Assembly: GCA_001600175.1 (NCBI GenBank)
Contig: BCJC01000002.1
Coordinates: 434,001-498,000, forward strand
DNA from: Erythrobasidium yunnanense
Lineage: Eukaryota > Basidiomycota > Cystobasidiomycetes > Erythrobasidiales > Erythrobasidiaceae
Direction: 5' to 3'
Length of the DNA: 64,000 nt
Shown here one piece after another: positions 1 to 60,295 of this stretch. Position numbers and translations under genes: made by a program. Below the pieces are notes generated by a model. That model saw only the letters and a list, made by a program, of their open reading frames with translations, was not told where the DNA came from and did not search any database. How positions within the stretch are numbered: position 1 is the first letter of the stretch; each line of letters opens with the position of its first letter.

Positions 1-3000
1 CAGCAGTCTATCAATGCTACACACGCCTTGACGGATGTCCCTAGTATCGTCAGCGATGTTGCAGAGGGCATGATGCGCCAGAATAATGGCGCTTCCCTTG
101 ACGCTGAAGCAGACGATGCTATGTCTGTTGATGGCCAAAGCAATGGCGCAGCTGAGGATCAAGAAGACGAAGACGAGGACGAGAATGAAGAGGAAGAGGA
201 AGAGGACCCTGCTAGTGGCTCCGAGTTCTCAGCTGGTAGTGAGGATATGGCCAGACAAGAAAAGGAGGATAGAGCTTTCGATGAAGAAAGGCTCGATCAC
301 ATCGCTGGCAATGCAGCTCAGGCAGGCAGGGACTACGTCGACCAGCAAAGGGGGGTCAGAGAAGATAGTCAGACCTCGCAGCCAAGGGGGAGAGGCGACA
401 TCACGATGGATGCTGAGCTTGATCCCGATCTTTATGGCCTTCGGAGAAGTGTAAGTGGACAACCACCTAGCCTTGTTTCCAGGCCAACCTCACACTTGTT
501 CGCATACGCAGAACCGCGGTGCGATCGCTCGAGCTAACGTGCAGAAATACCTCGAAGACTCCGACGATGAAGTCGTCCGACCTCCTCGTAGAGGCGGTAA
601 AGGCAAAGCTCGAGCTAGAGACGACGACTCCGACGAAGATACGATGCCTTACCGCTCTGCTCCTGGCTCTCGCCGTCAGTCCGGCATGAGCGAGTCTGTC
701 TCGGCCGAGGACGACCAGGACGAATCTGATGTAGACGATGCCTTCTATTCCAACAAGAAAGATAAGAGTAGATCGAAGAGTAAGAAGCAGAAGGCGGTCA
801 ATGGGAAGAAGAAGCTTCGAAGGGCAGGTAACGACTCTGAGGACTTTGACTCGGACCTATATGCTGCCTATGGTTCTCGAAACGCTCCTCGGGCCAAGCG
901 AGACCCGGTCAACTACAACGAAGCCGAGGCATACGACTCGATGCTGTCCGACGAGATCACGCCCGATGAAGACGAAGATGACGAAGACGAGGATATATCG
1001 AGAGATGGTGAAACACACAAGAAGAGCATCGCTGCTCAAGGCGACGCAGTTGATGGTGTCTTCGACCACAAGCGGGCTGATGATGCGTGTAAGTCGTCGC
1101 TCTCCTTGAGCGTCTAGATCCCGCTAACCAGGTTGACAGCTCCTGATGAAGAAGACAATACGCAAAAGAACATTCTCTTCCTTGTAAAGTGGCAGGGTTA
1201 TAGTCACCTACACAGTAAGTCCTGAAATATCGGCCTTTGCTTCATATTTCTGATCGGTAAACAGATACTTGGGAATTGCTATCCGACCTCAAGAATTTCC
1301 GAGGGTACAAGCGAGTTGAGAACTACATCAAGTCAACCTACATTGCTGCCGAGCGCATCAAGAATGACCGCACAATGTCACGAGAGGATGTCGAAGCTTT
1401 TGAAATCGATCGGGAACGTCGACGAGAACAGCTGGAAGGGTTCAAAACGGTAGAGAGGATCATCTCTCAACGGGATGCTGCAGCAAATCTCGACATCCCT
1501 TATGACCATCGTAAGCCTAAGAGCATAGCTTTGAGCAACACGAGCTGACGATCCAAGTCAATTGCAGTCGAATACTTGTGCAAGTGGAAAGGGCTAGTCT
1601 ACGCAGAGTCGACGTGGGAAGATCACGATACGATCTCAAAGATCGCACAGGCAGAAATCGACGCTTTCGTAGCGCGATCTTCTGCGTCTACTCTTCCGCA
1701 CCGCTCCGCAGCATACAGCAGAAACAGACCGAATTTCACCGCAATCAAGGAACAGCCTGAATACATCAACATCGGCGGAGAGCTGAAGGACTTCCAAATC
1801 ACCGGGCTTAATTGGCTTGTGTACCTTTGGTGTAGACGAGAGAATGGTATTCTAGCAGACGAGGTAAGCGCTTGTGTACGTAACAAGAGACTCGACTGAT
1901 CAGGCATATCAAACTAGATGGGTCTCGGCAAAAGTAAGTCTCTTTTGTATAAGCAGGGTCAATTGCTAAGCCACATACCAGCCGTTCAAACCTGTGCGAT
2001 TCTTTCGTATCTCTTCCACTCAATGCAACAGTATGGTCCATTCTTGGTAGTGGTCCCGCTATCAACGCTCCCCGCCTGGCAATGGCAGCTCGCCCAGTGG
2101 GCTCCTGCTCTAAACATCGTCGCATACACCGGCAATACCGAATCTCGCAAAATTATCCGTGACTACGAGTTCTACGACGGAAAGAAGCTCAAGTTCAACC
2201 TATTGTTGACAACGTACGAGTTCGTATTGAAAGACAGAACACAACTCGAAAAGATCAAATGGCAGTACATGGCCGTTGACGAAGCACACCGCTTAAAGAA
2301 CTCCGACTCCCAGCTCTACGAAGCCCTCTTCTCCTTCTCCGCTGCTGCTAAGCTGCTTATCACGGGAACGCCGTTGCAAAACAATGTCAAAGGTAAGCAC
2401 ACGCGATCGCCGTTTGAGCAAGTCTGATGAGGCGGTTCCTACACAGAACTGTTGGCTTTAATGCACTTCCTTCAACCCGAGAAATACGATCTACTAGAAA
2501 AGGATTTCGATCTGAAGGACGAAGATAAAGAAGCCAAGATCCGCGAGCTTCACGATCAGCTGAAGGACATCATGTTGCGCCGTCTGAAGCGAGATGTCGT
2601 GAAGAGCTTGCCCACGAAAAGCGAACGTATACTGCGAGTCGAGATGTCTCAGATGCAAGTGTGGTGGTACAAGAATATTCTGGCCAGAGTAAGTACATGA
2701 CTGCATGGTTTGAGCTCTCACCCTAACGATATTTTCAGAACTATGTCGCCTTGACGTCCGAGAATAGTCAAGTATCGCTCCTCAACATTGCCATGGAGCT
2801 GAAGAAAGCATCGAACCATCCATTCTTGTTTGACGGGGCCGAAGTCAGGTCAGACGAGCGTGATGCGACTCTGCGTGGTCTGGTCGTCAACAGCGGGAAG
2901 ATGATCTTGCTAGACAAGCTCCTAGCCAGGCTGAAGGCCGACGGTCATCGAGTACTGATCTTTACGCAAATGGTCCGAATGCTGTGAGTAACAATCACTG

Positions 3001-5515
3001 ATATTTGTGGTAGCAGAGATGCTAAAACGCCTATGAATAGCGATATTTTGTCCGACTATCTGGCTTTACGTGGTTACATCTATCAACGCCTGGACGGTAC
3101 TGTCCCTTCTGAAATGCGGCGCAAGTCTATTGAGCATTTCAACGCACCCGGCTCTCCCGACTTTGCTTTCATTCTCTCTACTCGAGCTGGCGGTCTAGGA
3201 ATCAATCTGGAAACAGCCGATACGGTTGTTATCTTCGACAGCGACTGGAATCCTCAAGCAGATCTCCAGGCAATGGCCAGAGCGCATCGAATCGGACAAC
3301 AAAATCACGTAAATGTCTATAGGTTCGTGACTAAGGATACTGTCGAAGAAGATGTGCTTGAGAGGGCCCGAAAGAAGATGATTCTCGAGCATGCCAGTAA
3401 GTTGTATGAGCCGCATGACTCAGTCTGACGAGCTTACACTCCTTCTTCAGTTATATCGCAGGTGGATACCTCCGGTCTCAACATCGGCAATAAGAAGCAG
3501 AAGGGAGTTGTAAACAAGGAGAACTACAGCAAAGAAGAACTTTCCGACATTCTCAAGTTTGGTGCTTCCAACATCTTTAAGAGCGATACGAATCAGGCTC
3601 AGCGTAAGCACAACTTGCGCCTTTCTAAGTACTGGCTAACATCTCTTTGCAGTTGAGGAGATGAACCTTGATGATGTTCTGAATAAGGCAGAGGACTATG
3701 AAACAGAAACTGCGCCTGGGGCTACCTCGGGCGGCTCAGAAGAATTCCTCCGAGTTGCGATACAGGACATCAAGCCCGATCTCACTTCCTGGGACGACAT
3801 CATTCCGGTAGCGGACAGGGAGCTGGCGCTCATGGAGAAGCGTGCAGCGGACGAGGCAGCAGCAGCCGAAAGGAAGGCCAAGTCTAAAAGCCATGCCCTT
3901 ACGACCCAAACGGCTACCGCAGAATCTGACTTTGATGCTGGACACTCGAGCGACAAGGATAAGGCCAAGAAGACTAAAGCCGGTGCTGGTAAAACTAAAG
4001 CTCAACGCTCAATCGAACTTGCCGAAAAGGACATCCGTCTTTTGGTCAGAGGGATACAGAAGTTTGGAGACATCCGCTATAGATATGATAAAGTGTCCAA
4101 AGACTCCAAGCTGGACAACAAGAACCGTACAATAGTCCAGCAAGCTGCAGACGAGCTTATCAAAGCTTGTCGCACCGCTATGGACGAGAACGAGCAGGAG
4201 CTCAAAGCGAAAGCCGCTGCCGGCGATGACATCAAGAAACACAAGGCGGTGCTCATCACATTCAGAAACGCGACCTCCATCAATGCCGAGACCACCCTAG
4301 CACGGCACGAAAACTTGAAGATTCTCAATGATTGTGAGCAGTCTAGGATGTTCTGGGACTGCTTGCTGACCTTCCTTACCTACTAGTCTTATCGTCACGA
4401 ACGGATCAATCTCCTTGGAAGATCCCGGTCGATAGCATCAAGTCAACCCAAAACTGGGCTGTGGACTGGGACAAGTCAGACGATGCCTCTCTTCTGACCG
4501 GCATTTGGAAGCACGGATTCGGCACTTGGGATGCAATCCACGATGACACAACGCTTGGACTCATGGGCAAATTCTTCCTCGACGCCGACAAGAAAGCCGG
4601 AAGAGACAACGAAGGCACTCCAGCTTCCGAGGCACAAGACAAGGATAAAGGTCCAAAGAAGGCCAAGAAGCAAAAGGCACCCGCGCCCGTCCACCTTGTC
4701 CGCCGGGGAGATTATCTGTTGTCTTTACTGCGAGACAGCGAGGCCGCAAGTCAATACCACAAGGAAGCTACTGCGCGTAAGAAGGAGCCAGGAGCAGCGG
4801 GATTGGCTGAAAAGGCAGCTCGCGATCGCGAAACATCCTCAGCTCCAGCGAGTAAATCCAAGAAAGCCAAAGCACCTACGTCCGAAGCGGGTCCAAGCAA
4901 GAAGAAGGTACCCGAGCAGACTTCAAGCAAATCAGACAAACCTGCGGCTTCCCGCAATAACAGCACCAATGGGAACGGGAAGAGGTCTGCAAAGCCAGAA
5001 AGCGACAGCGGCTCCGGTTCGGACTCTGGCTCTGACAGCGATTCCGGAGAGGAGATCGATACAGAGGCTTGTAAAGAGATGCTTAGGTGGGTGGCTCTGA
5101 ATTGAGTCGTTGATCTCGCTGACAGCTCCTGTTTAGGCCGGTAAAGCGGGAGCTGAAGGAGCTCAAATCATCCGACAAGCTACCTCGCGAAGACAAGGTC
5201 AAGGTACTAACCCGATGTCTTACATCTGTTGGCAAGAGGATAGACGAGGCAGCCGCCGAGAAGAAGGGAAGCGAAAAGGACAAAGAGAGGCAGAAGAAGC
5301 ATCTCTGGAAAATCGCCTCGGCCTTCTGGCCTATCGAGAGTGTTGACTATCGACAAGTTCAGGCGATGTGTAAGTCTGCGCCGTGTCATGTCAGCATGCG
5401 CTTTCAACTGACCCACAATTCAGATACCAAAATGACCGCAGCGGCTGCCGCTCGTCAGTCTCAAGCCAATGGCTCCAGCAAACCCAGTCTTCCTAAGAAA
5501 CCTAAGCTTGCATGA
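1..5515 (+). CDS. CHD1: CHD1-type chromatin remodelling ATPase (5' partial)
   Basis: This is an ATP-dependent nucleosome-spacing enzyme acting on transcribed chromatin. The reading frame is open at base 1, so the start lies outside the window. About 14 exons encode an acidic N-terminus, a first chromodomain ([12 protein letters not shown], split by an intron near 1214), a second chromodomain ([17 protein letters not shown] near 1570-1620), and a SNF2 ATPase whose Walker A (GLGKT) is split by an intron near 1933. The box DEAHRLKN lies near 2280. The helicase C lobe ([18 protein letters not shown]) spans about 2880-3400. A SANT/SLIDE-like segment ([20 protein letters not shown]) follows near 4410-4550, and a CHD1 C-terminal helical domain near 5130-5370. 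The chromodomain-ATPase-SLIDE-C-terminal order identifies CHD1 rather than ISWI or CHD3/4. The protein ends in PKKPKLA, about 1,500 residues or more in total. It is followed in tandem by MED12. The stop position is certain to within a base or so. Confidence 0.96.
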
Positions 5516-38558: not shown

Positions 38559-40591
38559 TCATTCCAGGAGCAACTGACACTTCTTGAGAACCTCCATCGT
38601 GATGTTCTTTGCATACTGTATATCGCGATGGTGGATCTGATCCGGATGTTGCAGGCGGAACTGCGGTATATCGGCCTGTAGCACACGGATCGCTGTTTTG
38701 TAGGCTTGACGAATCGACCGGGTCCGCTCTGTCACGGGTGATGACTGGAGTAGACTGTTCGTGGCACTGACGACCGCGTTGAGGGTCTTAGGGTCTTTCT
38801 GCAAGCCAATATGTGAGAAGACGACTATGCGTTCGCAATCTTGGAGACTTACGTAAACTTGATTCATAAAATCGTTGAAAGCTTTGATCTGTGGTCGAGC
38901 CAGCTTGAAGGCTTGAATCTGTCGCTTCGCAGCCTGGACTCGCTCGTAGATGGCTCTGGCCGCAGCAGACGGGTCTGAGGGAACGCGGGTTGAGCAGACG
39001 AGCCTCTGAATTGTACAGAATATTGTGGCAGCGATCTCCCCGATGAGATGACCATCCGATGACTCCTTGTCATCGTTGAGGATATTGTCAAGACGATCCG
39101 CCTGCTGCAAGCAGAAGCTGAGGCGCCGGTTTTCAATGACCATAGGCACCTTGAAAGGTTTGACGATTGCATCAAGGAAAGAGCTACGCAAGTTGCGTAA
39201 GCACGTAAGTCTATCTTTCGAAGCCTGCGGCAGCAGGCGCAGCGTCAGTGTTATCAAGTTTGCTCAGAGCGCACGCTGTTACTCACATAGAATCCTTTCA
39301 TCGCTTCGTTGAACTTAATAGCAGACGTTTGTTTGTTGTCGGACTTCTTCAGATCGGCCACGATCTTTTCTTGCAAACTTATCGCTTGTGCTGCTAAACT
39401 TCTGAGTAAAGCGTTCGCATCGCACTCTTCCGCGACAAGCCGTTGATGTATGCTCTTCCTGGGCTTCCTGCTTCTCTTCGTACCCGCCGCTATCGCAGGA
39501 GCGCGCTTGAGAAGGGCTGCCCCGTTTGTCAGCTGAAAGTCATCCGGCTGTAATGCCGCTCACCTTGCTGCAACCGACAAGATTCTTGGAACAAGACTCC
39601 ATCAGGCTTACGATCCTTGTGAGGTAGGAGATCTGAATGGATATTGAAATTAAGGATTGCCATTATAAGCTGGAATACAGTCTCGCGAAGTATGTCCAGT
39701 TCGGATCCATTATTGTCAAGGAAGGGAAAGCCGGTGCGTAGTTTCGCTTGCAGCACTCCTCCTGTTTCGGCGATACTTGCTGGACAAGCATTTATTGCGG
39801 TGATGGCGGGAAGGAGAACGGCCGGACGATGTTTTAGGGCTGATGCGAGGTCGTAAGATGTCTGACCGGCGCACAGTATGAACGGGGCCAGCCTGGCGAC
39901 ATGCTCTTGTATCTTATTGATTAGGGCTCTGCGATCGGCCTGGTGTGAGGAGCGCAGCGTCAATGTAAGAGGGAACAGACAATACTTGCGGCACAGCGTA
40001 CCGAAGTGCTTAGCAGATACCTGGACATCTTTCGATGATACTCGAATGCTATCCGATAGCACAGAAGCACGCGCTTGTGCAATACAGATCGAAGCGCGGC
40101 ATCGTTAGGTGCCCTTTCAGCTGCCTGTGTCGCTGACTCTAGCGCTTGCAGTGGAGTTGAATGGCTCTGTGCCCGCAGTACGGTGCGGACAAAGCAGCTG
40201 ATGAGACAAGAAGCCCGAATAGGGTCGTTCTGGGAAACAATCAGATAGCTTCCGCTGTAGAGCTTGGTTGACGCACGGCAACTAGGTCGGATAGCTGATT
40301 CCAGGCCTTCACGTCATTGTGAGGCTCCCCGCCGTTCTCCAGAATTATACGGAGGATGGCTCGAGGCGTCTCCTGCTCATCTGGCCAGTCCGTTGCCCAG
40401 AGGACATTAGCCTCAATGGAGTCGTTACTTTGCATTTTGCTGACGTACAGATCCGACCCTACTAAAGCAGCAAAACGCTTCAAGACGGTGGGCGTGGCAG
40501 TGTCCAACGAAAGGGAAAGTTGCTGAATGGACACGGCTCTTGAGAGGACAATTGACATAGTTGAGGCCTTCTTGAGTGTTGATAGCAACAA
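38559..40591 (-). CDS. Unrecognised protein, tandem paralog 2
   Basis: This multi-exon gene of about 550 residues is parallel to its neighbour at 40794-42677. Shared segments in order are: ANVLWATDWPDEQETPRAIL; HKRVLLCYRIAFE; APFILCAGQTSYDLASALKH; LRETVFQLIMAILNFNIHSD; a Lys/Arg-rich linker; NRRLSFCLQQADRLDNILND; and a C-terminal domain with VTERTRSIRQAYKTAIRVLQ, then KNITMEVLKKCQLLLE at the stop. The prediction is all-helical with no membrane segment. The start is uncertain: an in-frame ATG at 40435 (MQSNDSIEANVLW) matches the start of the paralog, while the open frame extends to 40591. I do not recognise the family. Its 3' end faces the kinase gene, 84 bases away. Confidence 0.6.
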
Positions 40592-40793
40592 GTCTGTCTG
40601 ACAATGGCTGCTCTACACGGGTGTCGATGGTACCACATAGGCAGCATGAGTACGCAACCACTTCGATAGTTCAAGGTCCCTCGTCTGGGCTCTTCTGCTG
40701 ATACTCGACGGGGCACGAGGTGTAGATGAGGGATGTAGTGTCAGCGATATTCTGACCATCCTGCTAAAGCCGCAGATGCCCGTACGAGGAGTT

Positions 40794-42677
40794 TCAGCTG
40801 GAAAGGAGTAGTTCGCACTTCTCGAGGACTTCGATCAGAAGATTGCGCGCGGACTGTATTTCTTGATCGTGGACGTGCTCCGGATACTGCAAGCCGAAAT
40901 CGGGTATGTCTTGCCGCAGAAGTCGCACCGCTTTGTGATAAATCTGCCTTATTGTGCGCGTCCGCTCCGTGACTGAAACTGAGATAAGCTGCTTGCGTGT
41001 CGCAGCGATACATGCTTCCACGAGCTTTGGGCGTTTCTGGCAGGAGGTCCGAACTTAGCATCAAACCAGGCGAAAGTCGGAAGTAAGTAGAGCTCACGTA
41101 AAGTGCATTCATATGGGCATTGAAAGCTGAAGTTTGGTCTTTGCTGAGCGTATAGGGCTGAAGGGCCACTTTCAGATCCCGCGCTTGCGTAACGATGGCT
41201 CCCGATGCTCTCGGCAGACTTGTTCTGGTGGGCTGTATACAGAGCAGCTTCTGCACGGTTTCGTAGATTATCATGCAAGCATCCAGAGCAGTCTGATGAT
41301 TGCGTAGCTCTGGCTGGTCATGCACCAGCTTGAGCAATCGATCCGCTTGCTGCAGACAGAATATCAGGCGCCGATTCTGCGGAACGACTGGCACTTTCGG
41401 GGCATAGACCATCGTGTCAGGGTAGTTCGATCTCAACTTCCGCAGGCTATCGATCCTGCTGTCAGTCGAGGCCTAGCACGCAAGCGTCTGTAAGCCGATT
41501 CTGGGCAGCTCCAGTGCGACGACCTACATAGAAGCTTTGCATGGCTTGATTGAATCTGGAGACTGCCTTGAGATCACGATGAGACGTCAAGTCGCTCAGC
41601 ACTTTCGTGCGTAGCGCTGCAGCCTCGTTGGCCAACTTCTCTAGCGTCTTCGTTGGATCTTCGGTGTTCGGCGCAGGCTTCTTCCTGCGTCTAGTCTTTT
41701 TAGATGTAGGGTCCTTCGGTGTTGAAGACTGCTTGATGACCTTATTATGCAGGACTGACGGGAGTGTTAGCGGGCGGCAGGGGCCGTAACCTTTGGCAAC
41801 ACTCACCTGCATGTAGCCGCTTGATCTCCGCTTCCAGCTCGCAACTCGAGTCGGTATCTCTATGCGGTATGATATCTGAGTATATCTCGAAGTTCAGAAG
41901 TGCCAGGTAGAGCTGGTACAGGGTCTCGCGCAGTAGCTGCAACTCAGAGGCTCCTGCAGGCAGGAAAGGCGACAGAAGCTTTCGTAAGCGAGCCTGAAGA
42001 TTGCTACCTGAATTTGCGAGCTCATCCGGCATTGCTGATATTGCTGCGATGACATGATGAGTGCTTTGAGGACGGTGCTTTGTAGCGGCTTTATAGTCGT
42101 AGTGTGTCTGTCTGGCGCAGTACATGAAGGCACCGAGTCCAGCTACATATTCGCGTGCCATATCGAGAATCTTGTCTCGCTCCTGCGCAGAGTAGGTCAG
42201 CAGACAATAGGCGGAGCGAAGACGAAAGTATAGCTTACAGCCGTATCAATAATCGCTTTTACTGCCTTTGTGTGACCCTCGAAGCCGAGCCGATAGCACA
42301 ATAGAATGCGCTTCTGAAGAATGACTCGCGCATTCCTAACCGTTGGAGCAGCTTCAACAGCTCTAGTTGCGGTTTCTAGCGATTGAAGACTACCGCAACT
42401 GGCCTGTTCTTCTAGAACGGTGCGTATGAACGTGCTGATCAAGGAGGATGCCTCTATCGGATTGCGCTGCAACGACAGGGTAAGCCACTAGTGCGAACAG
42501 GGCGGCTGCGTCACATACTACTACGAGTCGGTCCAGCTGCTTCCAGACGTCTTCATCTCGAAAAGGCTCTCCTCCATGCTCCATGATGATCCGTAGGATG
42601 GCTCGAGGCGTTTCCAGCTCCTCTGGCCAGTCTGTCTCCCAAAGGACGTTCGCCCGGATTGAGTGGCCTTGATGCAT
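40794..42677 (-). CDS. Unrecognised protein, tandem paralog 1
   Basis: About seven exons encode roughly 530 residues: MHQGHSIRANVLWETDWPEE; then RNPIEASSLISTFIRTVLEE; KRILLCYRLGFEGHTKAVKA; ERDKILDMAREYVAGLGAFM; ARQTHYDYKAATKHRPQS; LRETLYQLYLALLNFEIYSD; a Lys-rich linker (SKKTRRRKKPAP); NRRLIFCLQQADRLLKLVHD; and a C-terminal VTERTRTIRQIYHKAVRLLR, ending EVLEKCELLLSS. Introns sit at matching places in the downstream paralog. Predicted helical and probably soluble. Function is unknown; no catalytic motif is seen. The gene is divergent from DBP10. Confidence 0.62.
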
Positions 42678-51674: not shown

Positions 51675-54600
51675 ATGGCACCTCAGGAAGAAGCTGCGTC
51701 GCCGAAGAAGAAGGCTGCACCAGCGAAGATATCGAACATCATCGAGATCTTTGACAGTGACGAAGACATCCCTGGCGAAGCGGTAGCTGGTCCTTCTTCT
51801 TCGAGAGCTGGTCCTCAAGTCAAGAATGTGTGTCGCGCTGCGATACTCAGAGCCTTTCCAGGTGGTAGCTGACTCTTTGACTATTCCAGTCTCCTAGTAC
51901 TCAGGTATACGTGGTGGTAGACTTCCAAGCCGTCTAAGCTGTACTGACCTTCGATAACCGGATGAACAGGCTACCTCCTCCAAGTCGCCGCGAAAGAAGC
52001 ACGATTTCAAGACCCCTACTAAGCCTCAAGCAGTCTCAGGCGCCTTGAATTATGAGATAGTCGACCTCACATGCGACAGCTCTCCGGAAGAAAGCTATCG
52101 AGGTTATGCTTCGCAGGCCATCCTGAACAACAAAAAGGACAGCGATGATGAGGTTGAGATGATCATTCGCAATTCTGCACCGAGAAGGCGAGCCAGGCCT
52201 TCTGTAATCGATAGGACGGCGGAAGAGATCGCACAGCGTGACCTGCGTATAGGGGACCTCAAGCCACACATATCCATCTCTGCGGCGATACCAGACATCT
52301 CATCCCTAGCTCCGCTGCCACCTTCTCCCTCACCTTCGCCTGCGAGGATGCCCTTACCGCCTTCCCCTCTACCCACAACATCTATAGCAGCCGAAGATGA
52401 AGAAGACCCAGACGCAACTATCACCTCCATCACCTTCGACAGCAATATAGATCAGTTCGAGAACACGGCAGATTTACCTGAAGTAGAGCGCTCCCCCTCA
52501 GTGGAATACGAGCCGTACGATCCGCCGCCGGTCGACTACGAAGAAGGCGCCTCCTTCATATCAGAAGCAACAGTCGTTTCAAATGGTGGTGCTGCTCCTC
52601 TTCTCCCTTCCTTGCTTCCTATCGCACCTACTCAAGCCGCAGAGCCTCCTTCTTGGGAAGAGCTGCGGAATTTCGACTTCAACGCACATTTCGAGAAGCT
52701 CAAGCAGGCCAGAATAGCACAAGATGCTATAGAGATGAAGAATCAGAGAGCTTCGGCAATGTCGGTACACGCATCTTTGCCAAGTGCGCATATACATGCG
52801 CCGAGTAGTAGTAGCGAAGAAAGCGACACTGAAGGGAACGCGATGGAGGTCGATGCACCGGAGCTGCTCTTCACAGATGCAGAAGCTCGCAGCCACAGTC
52901 CCTACAATACTCTGAACACTCCTCCTCCGCATACTCGCGAAACGTCAGCCGAAAAGGACAGGAAGAAGCATAGAAAGCGCATACGCGAGCATGCTTATCG
53001 GGTACGTCAAATTTCAACGATACTGACAATGGTATTGAGTTTTTTTCGCCAGCCTCACCCCGTAGGCTACCAGCACCGAGGAGCGATAGAGTGGACGGGG
53101 CCGGAGCGCGGGGACGAGCTAAATAGGCTGGGATTTGACAGGTGTGTTGCAGGCTTTCACGTCTCCCGAGCAATATTGTGCTGACTATTCGCTGTGGTGT
53201 CAGGCATCTAAATATGAAGTACCCTGATCCATATCGCAACAATCGCACCTGGTTCGAAGACTTCATTAACGATCGAATCATTCAAGAAGAGCCCTTCGCC
53301 CCTCGCATCCAAATACACGATAGATCCCTTCCGGCCCCGAAATCGAAAAAGAAGAAGGCGAAAGAAGAGGAAACGAAGAGGGCGCCTCCTCCTAGCCATC
53401 CTCCCGTTGAGTATTTCTACACTAGTCGAATAGTATAGTACGTCCATCTTCCGTGTGCAACCCTCGGCCGAGCTTATTCTATCTGCCTTTCTTCAGTCGC
53501 ACTGGCGTCCCAGATCCAGTCAAGTTCGTAGCATGTGACTGCACGGACGGCTGTGGACCCGGTTGCAAATGCTATCAAAGACAGCAAGAGCTGATCAGAA
53601 ACCTGCATACCGATGCCAAGGTCCCAGCACCTTCCTCCTTCGCCTACGATGAGCAAGGTTCTCTCGTACTTCCACATCCTTATCCTGTATGGGAGTGCAA
53701 TGTTTGTTGGATTGTCGCCGTCTGCCGAGCTATGTAGCCAAGCTGATACAGCCTTTCTCGCAGTCACATTGTGGATGCCCTCAAGACGTAAGCGACCTCA
53801 CCTGGACCCCCCGCTCAAGCTGACTCTTACGTAGTGTCGTAACCGCAATGTCGGCAACGGACGGCGCGTGAAGCTTGATATTGTGAAGACACAGCGCAAA
53901 GGTAAGCTGGATCATATAATTGGATCGACCACTGCTGATTGAGACCTTAACAGGCTGGGGTACGGCAACCAATGCTGAAACGATGCAACACCGTGACTGA
54001 CGTTTTATCGCAGGCATTGAAGCAGGCCAGAACATCCCCAAAGGCACGTTTCTCTGCCTGTATGGTGGTGAGATGATTACGGCCTCCGCAGCCAAGTGAG
54101 TACAACGACCCAATAGCAGGTAGGTGCCTAACAGCTATCCTTAGGGAACGCGAGATACAAAATGACCTGGAGGATCCGCCTCGGTCGTACCTCTTCGACG
54201 TAGACTCACAATGGCTGCGGTGAGAATCATATCCATGTATGAACACAGCAGGTACTGACTAGGCTGAAAACAGCAACCACGATGGAGGAGCCACGCTAGA
54301 CAAAGATGGCTTTGTTGCTATCGGAACGACCTGGGGCAAGAACGGTCGACCGCCATCACCGAAGAAACTGCGGAACCAGCTCATGACGGAGGAGCAGGAG
54401 CAAGCTGAAGAAGATGGCGTGAAGGCTCTGTAAGCTTGATTGTCTAAAGATGCATGCATTGCTTACCACATATCTCTCAGATACGTGATTGATGCTCGGC
54501 ATTTCGTAGGTTGACTACACCCGTGTTCCCGAAGATACGCTCACATCATTCGCAGGGCAACCTAGCTCGGTATTTCAATCATGTGGGGAAAGTTACGCAG

Positions 54601-55090
54601 GTGATAGCGTACTCTGCTAAGTTTTGCCTAGGCATGCGACCCGAATGCTGTTCTCCGATCGGTCTTCGTTGACGACCAGGATGTGTGGAAGCCTCTACTC
54701 TGTATCTTTGCAAGGCGCAATATCCCGCAAGGCGAAGAGATTACGTAGGTCCTCTTCTTTTTCATTCTCAGGATGAGCTAAAAGAGGCATACGCAGAATC
54801 TCGTACAAGGGTTTACGGGAAGAGGACACAAATCTGGAACGCTGCACAGTCAGCGAGCCCTCACCTCCGCCAACAAAGAAAGGCAAGAAACGGAAGAGGA
54901 AGAAGGGCTCTCGTACGGAGAAACAGGTAGGGAAGGCTAGAAGCGGAGAAATGCAAGGCGCGGTCGACACGTTGTGTCAATGCGAGAGCGAGTGCTGCGA
55001 CGGAAGTGAGTGATTCTGCAGCATGCGTCCGCTCGACATGCTGAAGATTTCATAGGTATATTCACCTGGAGAGACGAAGAGGACGAATGA
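51675..55090 (+). CDS. SUV39/Clr4-type histone H3K9 methyltransferase
   Basis: This SET-domain enzyme is expected to methylate histone H3 lysine 9 and build heterochromatin. The start MAPQEEAASPKKKAAPAKIS opens a long, disordered N-terminal half with two SUMO-interaction-like motifs (IIEIFDSDED and EIVDLTCDSSPEE) and no visible chromodomain. The pre-SET zinc cluster runs FVACDCTDGCGPGCKCYQRQ to WECN, spliced to SHCGCPQDCRNRNVGNGRR. The SET core has KGWGIEAGQNIPKGTFLCLY and YLFDVDS, a roughly 70-residue charged insert, YVIDARHFGNLARYF, then NH spliced to ACDPNAV, and GEEITISY. The post-SET CQCESECC is followed by the spliced end DEEDE. Pre-SET, SET and post-SET in order define the SUV39 family. 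About 10 introns. It converges on the RdRP gene. Confidence 0.93.
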
Positions 55091-55229
55091 GCGCAGAAAT
55101 AACGAGGTTGCAATAGATACAGATGATGTGAAGGTAATAAATAATAGGTATCGTAAATATGCACAACGAAGTTAGCTATACAACGTCATTTAATACCCAT
55201 TTTCCGTTTCCTGTTTGTACGATAGCGAC
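55091..55229. other. Short convergent 3' region, SET methyltransferase and RdRP
   Basis: Only 139 bases lie between the two stop codons. The polyadenylation regions of the opposing genes probably overlap, which could make double-stranded RNA; this is inference. Confidence 0.5.
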
Positions 55230-58200
55230 TTAGCTTTCGTCTGTTTCGATAGTATAGGTGTTTCCCCAGGCAACTCCTTCGCCACCTTCGTTCTCGTCGA
55301 TGAATGCTCGACCTGTAGCATCGGCCGCTGACAATTCGCCTTCTCCTCGATAGTCTTCCAACAAGCTTGGGCCAATCAGGTTGCTGCTTGTAGAGATGAT
55401 AGGCTCGAAAGGCTGATCTCCTGTATAGTCGAAAGCAGCGGCCACGACACCGCTAGCTTGCTGGAGATCCTTCATGAGCGCCAGGATGAACAGCGCCGAT
55501 CTGATTGCTATACAGCCGAAAGTCTGGGCGCCAAAGTTGCCGCCTTGCGAAACAGCGACTCGCAAAGCTGCTAAGACCCTGTTTGTCCATTCTTGCGGTC
55601 GGAGTCTGCCATCATTTCCTTCGAGTCTAAACAGAACATTGTCGATAAGCTCCTTGCATTGTAAGTTGATTCGCTGAATGAGTTCTTGTTTGGTCTTTGT
55701 AGGAAGAGCGCCATGTAGGATAGTGCCAGTAAAGAGCTCGTGCTCTGAAAGGGGATGCCCAGCGTTCATGGTATTCGAGTATGCGATGTGCTTTAAGTCG
55801 GAGGCGAAAGTATGCATAGCGTACCAAGCGCTATCTCGATCATTGATATCCGTCGGCTGATCCGTCGTCTCTAAACCGCATGCTTCGAATTCCTCGATCA
55901 ATGCCATAAGGACATGATCGTCTTCTCCGCCTGCTACATACTGAGCATCGAGATCGGGGGCATCCTTCAGGATCTGATTGTCTTCCTCCCGACTGGACAA
56001 GCGGATTGCGCGATAGAGGACCCCGAGGACCTTCTTGCTATGGTAGATGAGTGCTTCTTCTTCAGCATCGATGTTCGACCAGGTTTGCTCGTGAGCCATA
56101 AAGTCAGGTCTATGTGGAAATAGCGGTCTAGGCATCTCTCGAAGGTCGATAGATTGCCCACTTTTGGGTGCTGCGAAAATTGGTTAGAACAGCGTGGAAC
56201 GCGGAGACATGCGCTTACCATCCACAGCGATAGTCTGCAGCTCAGCCAGTTTCTTGCATGATGGATGTCTGGTGCCGCAAGGCGGACCAAAGCCGCTAGG
56301 TGCCTGGTCTGCAATCAGAAGATGCTGCAGAGCTGATCAGCCTTTTCCCGTAGGGGTCGCTGAGGTCAACGCTCACGCGGCTTGCGACTTGACCGAGCAT
56401 ATCGTTACGGAAGAAGCTCACGACGAAGTCGATCACATCATCGATAGTGCAGTCTCGGTCAAGCTTGACTGGCGTCTTTGGCTTATGAACCATTGCTGCT
56501 TCTGTTTGTTTCGGGAATAGCCTTGTATCGTAGATGACACTGATCAGATCTCCATCCATGTCTCCGCGGGATAGCGAATTGAGCAGCGAGTTTTGTCCAT
56601 GAATGGAGAAGATGACGGTATTTGGTAAGTGCTTGAACCGTTCAGCACCAGGTGGAGGTGTTCCGACAGCATGAGCGAATTGAACATCTCCGACATCGAC
56701 AGTCGGAGCTCGAATAAGAAGCACGCGGCCTTTAATGATCTGCGGGTTCTCTCCCGGATTCTGTCGGAGAGTGTAGATTTCTCCCTATACCTCAATCAGC
56801 GCCTGGTCGGTCATCTACGTGAGGGGCCGTACCTCTTTCAATGTACCAGACTCGTCTGCGATGGCCACTCCTACATGTGCATCGGGGACAGGGATGCGTG
56901 CTTTGAGCTTCAGCATACGTAGGATGTGTACCTCAGCGAACTCTAGAGATTCTGCAATGAACTTGCTCAAGGCTCCACCTTCTCGGAAAGGAGCAATCTT
57001 GTTTGTCCTCAGTAGAGCTCCAATGTTTTCTACCAAATCGGTGATAGCGAAGGGTCCTCCCAGACCATGCAGTGTAAGCTGTCTTCTAGTCTCTCGGACA
57101 TAGAGCTTGAGCTGTTCAGCCTTGATGACAGCATCCTTCAGAAGAAGCTTGAAGACATCCGGTTTTACTTGTAGATCTTCAAGCACTTTGATGAGAGGGC
57201 GGTTGAGGAACATGTTGATGTGTCTAACGAACGAGTATGCAATTTCCAGCGCTGTAGACTGCGGAGCATCGAACTTCTGCTGAGACGGTCTGACGCAGCT
57301 ATGGGTCACACTCCTTCAGCGTCAAGCACGGACTGATGCTGCAAGGAACTTACATGACCTCGCCTTGCAGTTCTGAATCGACTGTAAGAACACCCTTGTA
57401 TCCTCCCAAACGGAATTGGAAGGCACTAGGGAGCGCAGCTGTGACTTCCACATTGTTGAACAGTGCCTTCCAGACTTTCTTTGCAAGATCAATGGAGATC
57501 TTGCCTACTCCATCTGTAAAGCAGACCATCTCTCCACGCGAGTCAAGCCTTTCTACATCTTTAATAGGAATGATCTGTTCAGGCTTTAAGACGATAGAAG
57601 GGTCGGTTGCAGTGAATGCCTGAGCCATTCTTGCACCGTATCTTGCAGGTTGACGAATAACTTGGCTAAAGTCTCCGAGGTTTTGGCGAATAAAATCGGC
57701 ATCGACCATCTGGCCTTCCCATTCGAAGGGCGTGCAAAACCATGTCGAGCGGTTTCGAAGAGAAGACATGCTATAGCCGAGAAAGTTGTATTGTCTGGTA
57801 GTCTATCTCATCAGTATAGGCCTTATTTGCTTGTAGCGTATACGCACCGCCCTGCAAGGTTGATCTTCCTTCGGAGAATCTCGCCTACTCTCGCCTCAAG
57901 GAATTCTACCCAGTCGATATCGGTCGACTAAGATGCCCAGCATTAGTAGTGCCGATATTACAAAAGTCGATCGAAATTAGCCTACCCAGCGATACATTGC
58001 CTTGTCTTCGTCCATGAATGCGACTCGGATGAAGTGGTCATGATGGCCATATTTACTATGCAACTAAATCAGACTTTGGAAGAAAAATTACTGTGAATGC
58101 ACTACTCACCGAAGCGGTCGATTCGATTGGTCTGGATACGGACCATCTAGAATCATTGAGGTAGGCGTCATTGTCACATGCAAACATTGCATAACCGGAC

Positions 58201-60295
58201 TTTCATAATTCTCCCTCCAATCTACTCTGTGCATTCCACGCTCAACATACTCTTTGAACACTTGTACAAAGCTACGCTTCTGTTCGAGGTAAGTGCTGTC
58301 TTTCTGGAAGTTGACGGTTGTATCTTTGAGTATACCGTCGAGCCAATGGTCTTCCATACGCATGAGCTCCTCCACATATTGATGCAGAATATCAGACGTG
58401 TGAAACGGTCCTTTGGCTTTGAGAACGCCTTCAACGTCCGGGCGGATCTCCAGGATTTCGGCAGGAGTAAGTAGACAATTGCAGAATAGGCGACTGAGCT
58501 GGAAAGCTACAGCTCTGCTGTCAAGACTTCCTAGCCACTTGGTCAGTGCATGTCTCGCTTTCTTGTCGTATAGTCGGCGACGATCGGTTTCCATTTGAAC
58601 TAATTTGGCTGGAGGGCATCCGATGGCGATCAGGAGATCTTGGAAGTCTCCACTTTGAGCATCGCTGTCAAAGACGAAACGTATAGTCCGGGATGTGTGA
58701 GCAGAAACTTCTTGGTGCTTCTCGTCTAAAGCCGGTCGTCTTTGTCTACCGGTATACTGTCGTCGAGCTCCATTTTCGTCGTACTCCGCCTCGGTTATCA
58801 CCTCTTCGAAGGCCGGAGGATATAGTAGGAATAGTGTAACCGCATGTTCATCCTCCAAGTCAGAAGCGACAATGAGGCGTACTGAGGCTCCTCTGATTGC
58901 GAGGATGCTAGTAGACCCAGGAGTGCCTTTAACACCCGCATTATTCAGGTTGAGGCGAAGATTCCTTCTACCATAATCGAAACTGAACTTGGCGTCCTTC
59001 TGCTTGAAAGGGTCTGCTACTCTTATCTGCTTGCTGTATTCCCTCGAGAACAGGCCATCCTTGCAGAGAACGCCAAATTCGAGACGCTCCAACACTAGGC
59101 CGTCTGCCTTTCGATCGTTTTGAGCCTTTTGAGAGCGATTACCTTTCTCTCGATATGGCACCCGATTAAGCCATTCCAATAGACCATCAGGAGGACTTCG
59201 ATCTCCCGCCTCGAAGACTAGAGCTTGACCGTGAGCACGGATGGGAATAGCATTTCGTTGGGCTCGGCCGTGCTTCTCCATAAATTTCTGTGCGTCGGCC
59301 AGCTGTGGAAGTGATAGAAACCTGAAAATGGAGAACAGATCAGTGGCTGTAATACCATGTGCTGGAGCTAACTTACGCGATACCATCATTCTCTTTTCCC
59401 CATGACCCAGCAATCTCACGAGGTCTCGGGACATGTAGCCTAGCGAGCACTGAGACTGAGCTCTTCTATCCATCTACTGCGACAGAACGACTCACCAAAA
59501 GTTGAGCTTCTTGTTCTTGTAGGAAAAGGGAGCACGATGCAAAGTAGCATCGGCTAAGAGGTGCTCCAAATCATCTTTTCGAATCCCTTGAGGTAGATTT
59601 GATATCCGAATCTCAAAGTGTCTCCTGACAGGGCGGATCGGGTAGTTGGCTGGAGGTATCGAGTGCGGGCCAGGCGGTCCGACTCTAGGTCGAGCCGGCA
59701 GCTTTGGATTACGTGTGCTGCTAGACGGATGCTGTTGCTGATTTCTAGGAAGTGTACGGGCTATACGAATAGGATCTGCCACGGTTGCTCTTTGGCTTGC
59801 ATAGGGAGAATCACGCTTTATGGGTCTGGGAACGACACCGGGCTGGACTTCTCTGGCAGCTTGACTGATAGATATACGTGTGAATGCAGAAGATAGATTG
59901 GATGGACCAGCCGATAAGGCAGAAGTAGTTGGAGACGGTGGTCTGGCGCCTGGAAGATGCGGAGGTGCCATATGAGCGAAGCCTCGTGAAGGAGCTTTCA
60001 ATGTTGCATTAGACGATGGCTTCACGCTTTCGTCTGGGTCAGAAGTAGGTGGAGAATCGGTAGCTGTCGCCATTGCTTCATCAAAGCTGGAAAGCCAATC
60101 GTCTTCACTAGATTCGCGGGACTTCGCGTTTCGAGCAGGATGCTGTGCGTTGTGATAGCCATTTGCACCATTCCTTGCTGGTGACTGCTTCTCCATCCTG
60201 AACGACTGATTATGCGAAGCGTTCGGCCCGCTTCCAGCTTCTCCTCCTGTAGACAGCGGCCTGGACGATGAGGAGCTTGAAGAAGAGCGCCGCAT
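55230..60295 (-). CDS. RNA-dependent RNA polymerase (RNAi type)
   Basis: This is a cellular RdRP of the QDE-1/Rdp1 kind, which copies RNA into double strands for Dicer. The start [20 protein letters not shown] leads a disordered N-terminus of about 220 residues. An RRM-like segment follows (HFEIRISNLPQGIRKDDLEH). The central part includes RFVFDSDAQSGDFQDLLIAI and MQCLHVTMTPTSMILDGPYP. The catalytic core has GEMVCFTDGVGKIS and AFQFRLGGYKGVLTVD, and after introns FAITDLVENIGALLR, GRVLLIRAPTVDVGDVQFAH and the active-site SRGDMDGDLISVIY carrying the DxDGD triad. The C-terminus is helical (DRDSAWYAMHTFASDLKHIA). It ends YTIETDES. About nine introns. With roughly 1,450 residues it is of usual size. 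Intact reading and the complete DxDGD loop suggest an active enzyme. Confidence 0.94.

Follow-up and report, generated by a model that had tools for sequence, protein, structure and literature searches.

Convergent RNA interference (RNAi) genes that regulate themselves have reportedly been described in the fission yeast Schizosaccharomyces pombe by Gullerova and Proudfoot in 2008 and by Gullerova, Moazed and Proudfoot in 2011. In S. pombe, convergent genes, most RNAi genes included, are reported to be down-regulated, or autoregulated, through RNAi-dependent heterochromatin (PMC3900390). The methyltransferase for histone H3 lysine 9 (H3K9) and the cellular RNA-dependent RNA polymerase (RdRP) of this yeast act in one RNAi–heterochromatin loop (PMC7763443), in agreement with the original prediction made for the locus described here. 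This locus lies in a 64,000-nucleotide stretch (the window) of the basidiomycete Erythrobasidium yunnanense, located on contig BCJC01000002.1 (C2:434001-498000) within a 20.9-Mb genome of 10 contigs. It comprises a SUV39/Clr4-type SET gene and a cellular RdRP gene in tail-to-tail orientation. We confirmed that the two are neighbouring and convergent, and the distance between their stop codons, predicted at about 140 bases, is 139 bases. Our preferred reading, to which we assign a probability of about 60%, is that nothing special sets this pair apart: two ordinary silencing genes happen to adjoin, in the tight layout seen most often in a compact genome.

The evidence for this reading comes from gene order predicted over 264 kb, comprising the window extended by 10 kb at either end, eight stretches near genes for silencing or chromodomain proteins, and ten further stretches. 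Among the 102 neighbour pairs, 24 are convergent, 55 tandem and 23 divergent, and the 139-base gap ranks seventh from the smallest among the 24 convergent gaps (median 200.5). Twelve parameter settings gave 21–26 convergent gaps, with 5–13 of 139 bases or less; once this pair and the stretches chosen for their genes were set aside, 3–10 of 15–19 convergent gaps were this short. A 3' end faces another 3' end in about 47% of cases (0.466; 0.41–0.53 across settings). Neither the orientation nor the shortness of the gap stands out in this genome. Four of eight silencing genes are convergent (this RdRP gene, this SET gene, one Argonaute gene with a gap of 163 bases and the Dicer candidate with a gap of 151), while the second RdRP gene, two Argonaute genes and a chromodomain gene are tandem. 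The probability of at least four convergent genes among eight is 0.56, and the independent events are fewer than four of eight implies, because the SET/RdRP pair enters the count twice. Silencing genes are convergent no more often than other genes here. RNA structure within the gap also shows no excess (z 1.15).

A tail-to-tail pair with a short shared 3' gap would then represent the usual tight layout of a compact genome. Each transcript would probably end in or just past the 139-base gap, a 3' overlap, if present, would not distinguish the pair from most other convergent pairs here, and the neighbourhood itself would reflect chance or inherited gene order. We infer that the pair is under no special regulation. 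Plain transcriptional interference, in which colliding polymerases would lead to inverse expression of the two genes with no involvement of RNAi, has a cited example in Saccharomyces cerevisiae, a species without RNAi (PMC3900390). However, such interference would hold for any tight convergent pair, and we give it only a remote chance of explaining this one.

Both genes were spliced by hand, and domains were assigned with Pfam. The coordinates of the genes and their features are collected in the table below. The SET gene contains 16 introns of 47–65 bases and the RdRP gene nine introns of 48–58 bases; in both, the spliced reading frame is uninterrupted. A second set of models was produced by a home-made, splice-aware gene finder, which is not a fully independent check because its training relied partly on these two genes. 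It placed both stop codons identically (that of the SET gene at 55088-55090) and agreed on almost all exons. It differed in choosing a later start for the RdRP gene (60196, compared with 60295 in the hand model) and in reading one SET exon otherwise, which drops five Pre-SET cysteines. As these five disputed cysteines align with Clr4, the hand model of the SET gene was retained.

Table. Coordinates of the convergent gene pair and of its predicted domains and motifs (window positions).
Feature	Position	Strand	Details and basis
Gene for SUV39/Clr4-like, putative H3K9 methyltransferase	51675..55090	+	17 exons, 848 amino acids; hand splicing, Pfam, Clr4 best solved relative
Pre-SET region, residues 496-588	53400..53846	+	nine cysteines in common with Clr4
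SET domain, residues 607-772	53901..54809	+	holds a loop of ~55 residues absent from the Clr4 fragment
Motif NHACDPN in SET	54577-54646	+	read from sequence
Post-SET CxCx4C cluster CQCESECC, residues 828-835	54975..54998	+	by eye
Gap between stop codons	55091..55229	.	139 bases, 36.7% G+C
Gene for cellular RNA-dependent RNA polymerase	55230..60295	-	10 exons, 1528 amino acids; hand splicing, Pfam
RdRP core domain, residues 672-1271	56004..58171	-	PF05183, 1.2e-152, profile 1-582 of 582
Presumed catalytic motif DMDGD, residues 1119-1123	56548..56562	-	sequence and alignment

Using Pfam, we identified in the SET protein a Pre-SET region (1.2e-11) and a complete SET domain (PF00856, 3.9e-22, profile 1-105 of 105). 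The best solved relatives are Clr4 (106.5 bits), EHMT2 (105.6), SUV39H2 (95.4), DIM-5 (85.2) and SETMAR (77.9), and by these scores the protein is nearer to SUV39, Clr4 and G9a than to Pre-SET enzymes of the SETMAR type. Like Clr4/SUV39H-type enzymes it carries Pre-SET, SET and post-SET parts, with all nine shared Pre-SET cysteines matched to Clr4 in a two-row alignment. It differs from Clr4 in the loop within its SET domain, in a long, disordered-looking N-terminus, in reading NHACDPN where Clr4 reads NHSCSPN, and in having no match to Chromo at E 0.001. DIM-5 also lacks a chromodomain. The NHACDPN motif spans a weak splice donor, GTGGGG. The domains and cysteine clusters indicate that the protein most likely methylates H3K9.

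The genome search found a single further Pre-SET gene, a short one at C2:2238595-2239309 encoding Pre-SET, SET and post-SET. Its Pfam Pre-SET score (47.6 bits) exceeds that of one exon of the window gene (24.9 bits), which made it a candidate for the Clr4 relative of this genome; we rejected it as SETMAR-like, since it scores 151.5 bits against SETMAR and 96.4 against Clr4. The window gene is therefore the one SUV39-like gene found. We also observed that both Pre-SET enzymes of the genome read NHAC (the second copy lying at ~5,310-5,400 of locus L027), in contrast to NHSC in Clr4 and SETMAR.

The RdRP shares with basidiomycete cellular RdRPs (PF05183) a full-length core and the DxDGD motif, whose three aspartates and glycine are invariant across 13 aligned RdRPs and whose role we take to be catalytic. 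Its scores against solved relatives are 180.8 bits for 7w84, 172.7 for RDR2 (7eu0) and 34.4 for QDE-1, so that by alignment it is closer to RDR2-type enzymes than to QDE-1. The best 120 of 391 relatives share 30–35% identity with it, and those that carry organism names are, by eye, basidiomycetes. It differs from these enzymes in having no close relative among the matches listed, and its placement in a tree with 111 relatives from those matches has a low support of 0.145. From its core and motif, the enzyme most likely makes double-stranded RNA (dsRNA) for Dicer and Argonaute. Among the RdRP-domain proteins, five from Rhizoctonia and Ceratobasidium (P0001-P0005) are 2,376-2,457 amino acids long, about twice the usual length, which may reflect RdRPs in tandem or in fusion, or merged gene models.

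The genome contains further RNAi machinery, all of it located away from the SET/RdRP pair. A second RdRP locus, of more diverged sequence, is found at C2:1.12 Mb, and Piwi pieces of Argonaute occur at three loci. A Dicer candidate at C7:39.5 kb combines two RNase III domains with a start that is helicase-like, and four more RNase III pieces lie elsewhere. Two of the three Argonaute loci (C2:2877600 and C2:2964859) lie ~90 kb or less apart. The chromodomain search of the genome returned nine pieces. Two of them, at C8:943 kb, join across an intron into one protein (2.5e-12) that was found with a loose cut-off only; it too is located away from the pair and, judged by its domain, could read H3K9 methylation. 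By eye, a CHD1-like gene of the window and eEF3-like ABC proteins account for two pieces each, and a Ty3/gypsy-type element and a small gene for one each; the last piece is weak. The CHD1-like gene (window 70-4386, chromodomain 1555-1677) lies ~50 kb from the pair; linkage of the pair to HP1 through this chromodomain was considered and ruled out, as the gene encodes a remodeller with an SNF2-type part. No C5 DNA methyltransferase was matched in the genome, with 10 of 14 control genomes positive, and a gene split by introns could escape this search; such genes are present in nearly all Pucciniomycotina studied, according to PMC12210899. Searches for chromoshadow and Stc1 also gave no match in the genome and are uninformative, because the control genomes were equally blank.

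Given this machinery, we considered self-limiting feedback, as the original prediction had proposed. Transcripts overlapping at their 3' ends would form dsRNA, Dicer would process it into small interfering RNAs (siRNAs), and Argonaute together with H3K9 methylation would lower the expression of both genes. The idea is not new, as the S. pombe work provides a published precedent (PMC3900390). Mean lengths of 3' untranslated regions of 180–304 bases in three smut fungi (PMC5414199) would also make an overlap across 139 bases likely. Against this, an equal overlap is expected for many convergent pairs here, so the pair is not singled out. The gap contains one poly(A)-signal-like hexamer for each gene, AATAAA at 55136 on the + strand and, on the - strand, ATTAAA starting from 55194. 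With the hexamers of both genes inside the gap the overlap may be slight, but they are weak evidence on transcript ends because the gap is A+T-rich. In smuts, antisense transcripts were judged to act independently of RNAi (PMC5414199). Furthermore, Cryptococcus neoformans produces endogenous siRNAs independently of H3K9 methylation, and its RNAi mutants lose a set of siRNAs that overlaps little with the set gained when CLR4 is missing (PMC6643885). The loop known from fission yeast can therefore not be taken for granted here. With an ordinary gap, a share of convergent silencing genes (four of eight) close to the 0.47 baseline and both hexamers inside the gap, the feedback proposal has found no support so far, and we regard it as improbable. 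Overall, the first interpretation of the locus is partly supported.

Some observations weigh against happenstance. The prior chance that one SUV39 gene adjoins either of two RdRP genes is ~0.0004 (~9,600 genes), and the chance that some pair among the eight silencing genes adjoins is ~0.006; both are to be read with the pair having been singled out because it seemed meaningful, when many functional pairings would have caught notice. In Microbotryum lychnidis-dioicae, which has two DIM-5-like genes, MVLG_02125 and MVLG_05378, and a single RdRP gene, MVLG_02137 (PMC4469406), MVLG_02125 and the RdRP gene are 12 tag numbers apart, a distance in tags and not on a map. Such a distance would arise by chance with a probability of ~0.0065 for two such genes among 7,364, or about twice that for two species. 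Because the tags are so close, the neighbourhood is perhaps inherited and not accidental: the linkage of the two genes may go back to an early basidiomycete, with selection for joint inheritance or regulation keeping them close in some lineages. Consistent with this, the Pre-SET genes of the present genome number two, a SUV39-like and a SETMAR-like one, just as Microbotryum has two DIM-5-like genes. We consider inherited linkage the strongest rival to ordinary neighbours, although on balance unlikely. The Microbotryum assembly consists of 1,231 scaffolds, so a border could fall between the two tags, and MVLG_02125 may not be the SUV39-like one of the two genes. In addition, slow neutral shuffling of gene order would leave similar traces.

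Other fungi also bear on inherited linkage. The presumption that fungi do not generally keep the two genes linked is borne out by Cryptococcus neoformans, where RDP1 is CNAG_03466 (PMC4778953) and SUV39H is CNAG_05404 (PMC5979944), with tags far apart. Provided that locus tags follow chromosomes, these genes are unlinked, in one of the two species with tags for both genes, which argues against an inherited neighbourhood. The lack of linkage of the two genes in S. pombe, to our knowledge, argues in the same direction. For Ustilago bromivora, the available excerpt gives tags for three RdRPs and none for SUV39 (PMC5106213), and in the literature searched, to the extent of its excerpts, we found no report of SUV39–RdRP linkage as such. 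Protein searches for SUV39 relatives returned 2 and 23 proteins, among which no basidiomycete was noticed. An alignment scan with the RdRP found two loci in prokaryote genomes, both fungal contamination, and none in viral contigs. The two contigs concerned (NYXK01000054.1 and NYXK01000162.1, labelled as Deltaproteobacteria metagenome-assembled genome CPC1) are 99.97% identical over 17 kb and carry an RdRP gene of fungal origin together with a gene that, by eye, is HET-like; no SUV39-like gene lies within ~10 kb of the RdRP on these near-identical contigs. Taken as a whole, linkage is no rule, yet it may be older than this genome.

We further considered a combination of inheritance and feedback, in which an ancient basidiomycete silencing locus, with its genes near each other in Microbotryum and adjoining here, would produce siRNAs from the gap that damp both genes when silencing becomes too strong, and would so act as a sensor of its own pathway. 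We hold this to be very improbable.

If the linkage is inherited, RNAi and H3K9 methylation would be tied by gene order, which would help to explain their joint loss in some lineages. Ustilago maydis lacks RNAi genes, and it also lacks genes for heterochromatin formation that are present in Ustilago hordei, as described in PMC7763443. If the shared 3' end is a target of siRNAs, the pair would offer a natural test, outside fission yeast, of self-limitation by RNAi in fungi. If neither holds, the pair is a useful reminder of how usual closely spaced convergent genes are in compact fungal genomes.

None of the genes flanking the pair is a silencing gene: one encodes a BMT5-like ribosomal RNA methyltransferase, one a protein that matches DEAD-box only weakly, and one a transfer RNA synthetase of the lysyl type. 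Elsewhere in the window, two adjoining predicted genes at 38559-40435 (-) and 40671-42677 (-) encode clearly similar proteins and appear to be a tandem duplicate of unknown family; the 492-residue protein of 38559-40435 has no Pfam match.

Compared with the closest described systems, the locus resembles Microbotryum in bringing a DIM-5-like gene and an RdRP gene close together, the two being twelve tags apart there and adjoining here; that comparison is by locus tag. It resembles the autoregulated RNAi genes of S. pombe in having silencing genes placed tail to tail across a short gap, with transcripts that would be able to pair. The S. pombe system differs in that its regulation was demonstrated experimentally, whereas that of the present pair is hypothetical, and in that most RNAi genes are reported to be convergent there, compared with four of eight here. 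In S. pombe, a silencing gene may face a gene of another kind, whereas in E. yunnanense two silencing genes face each other.

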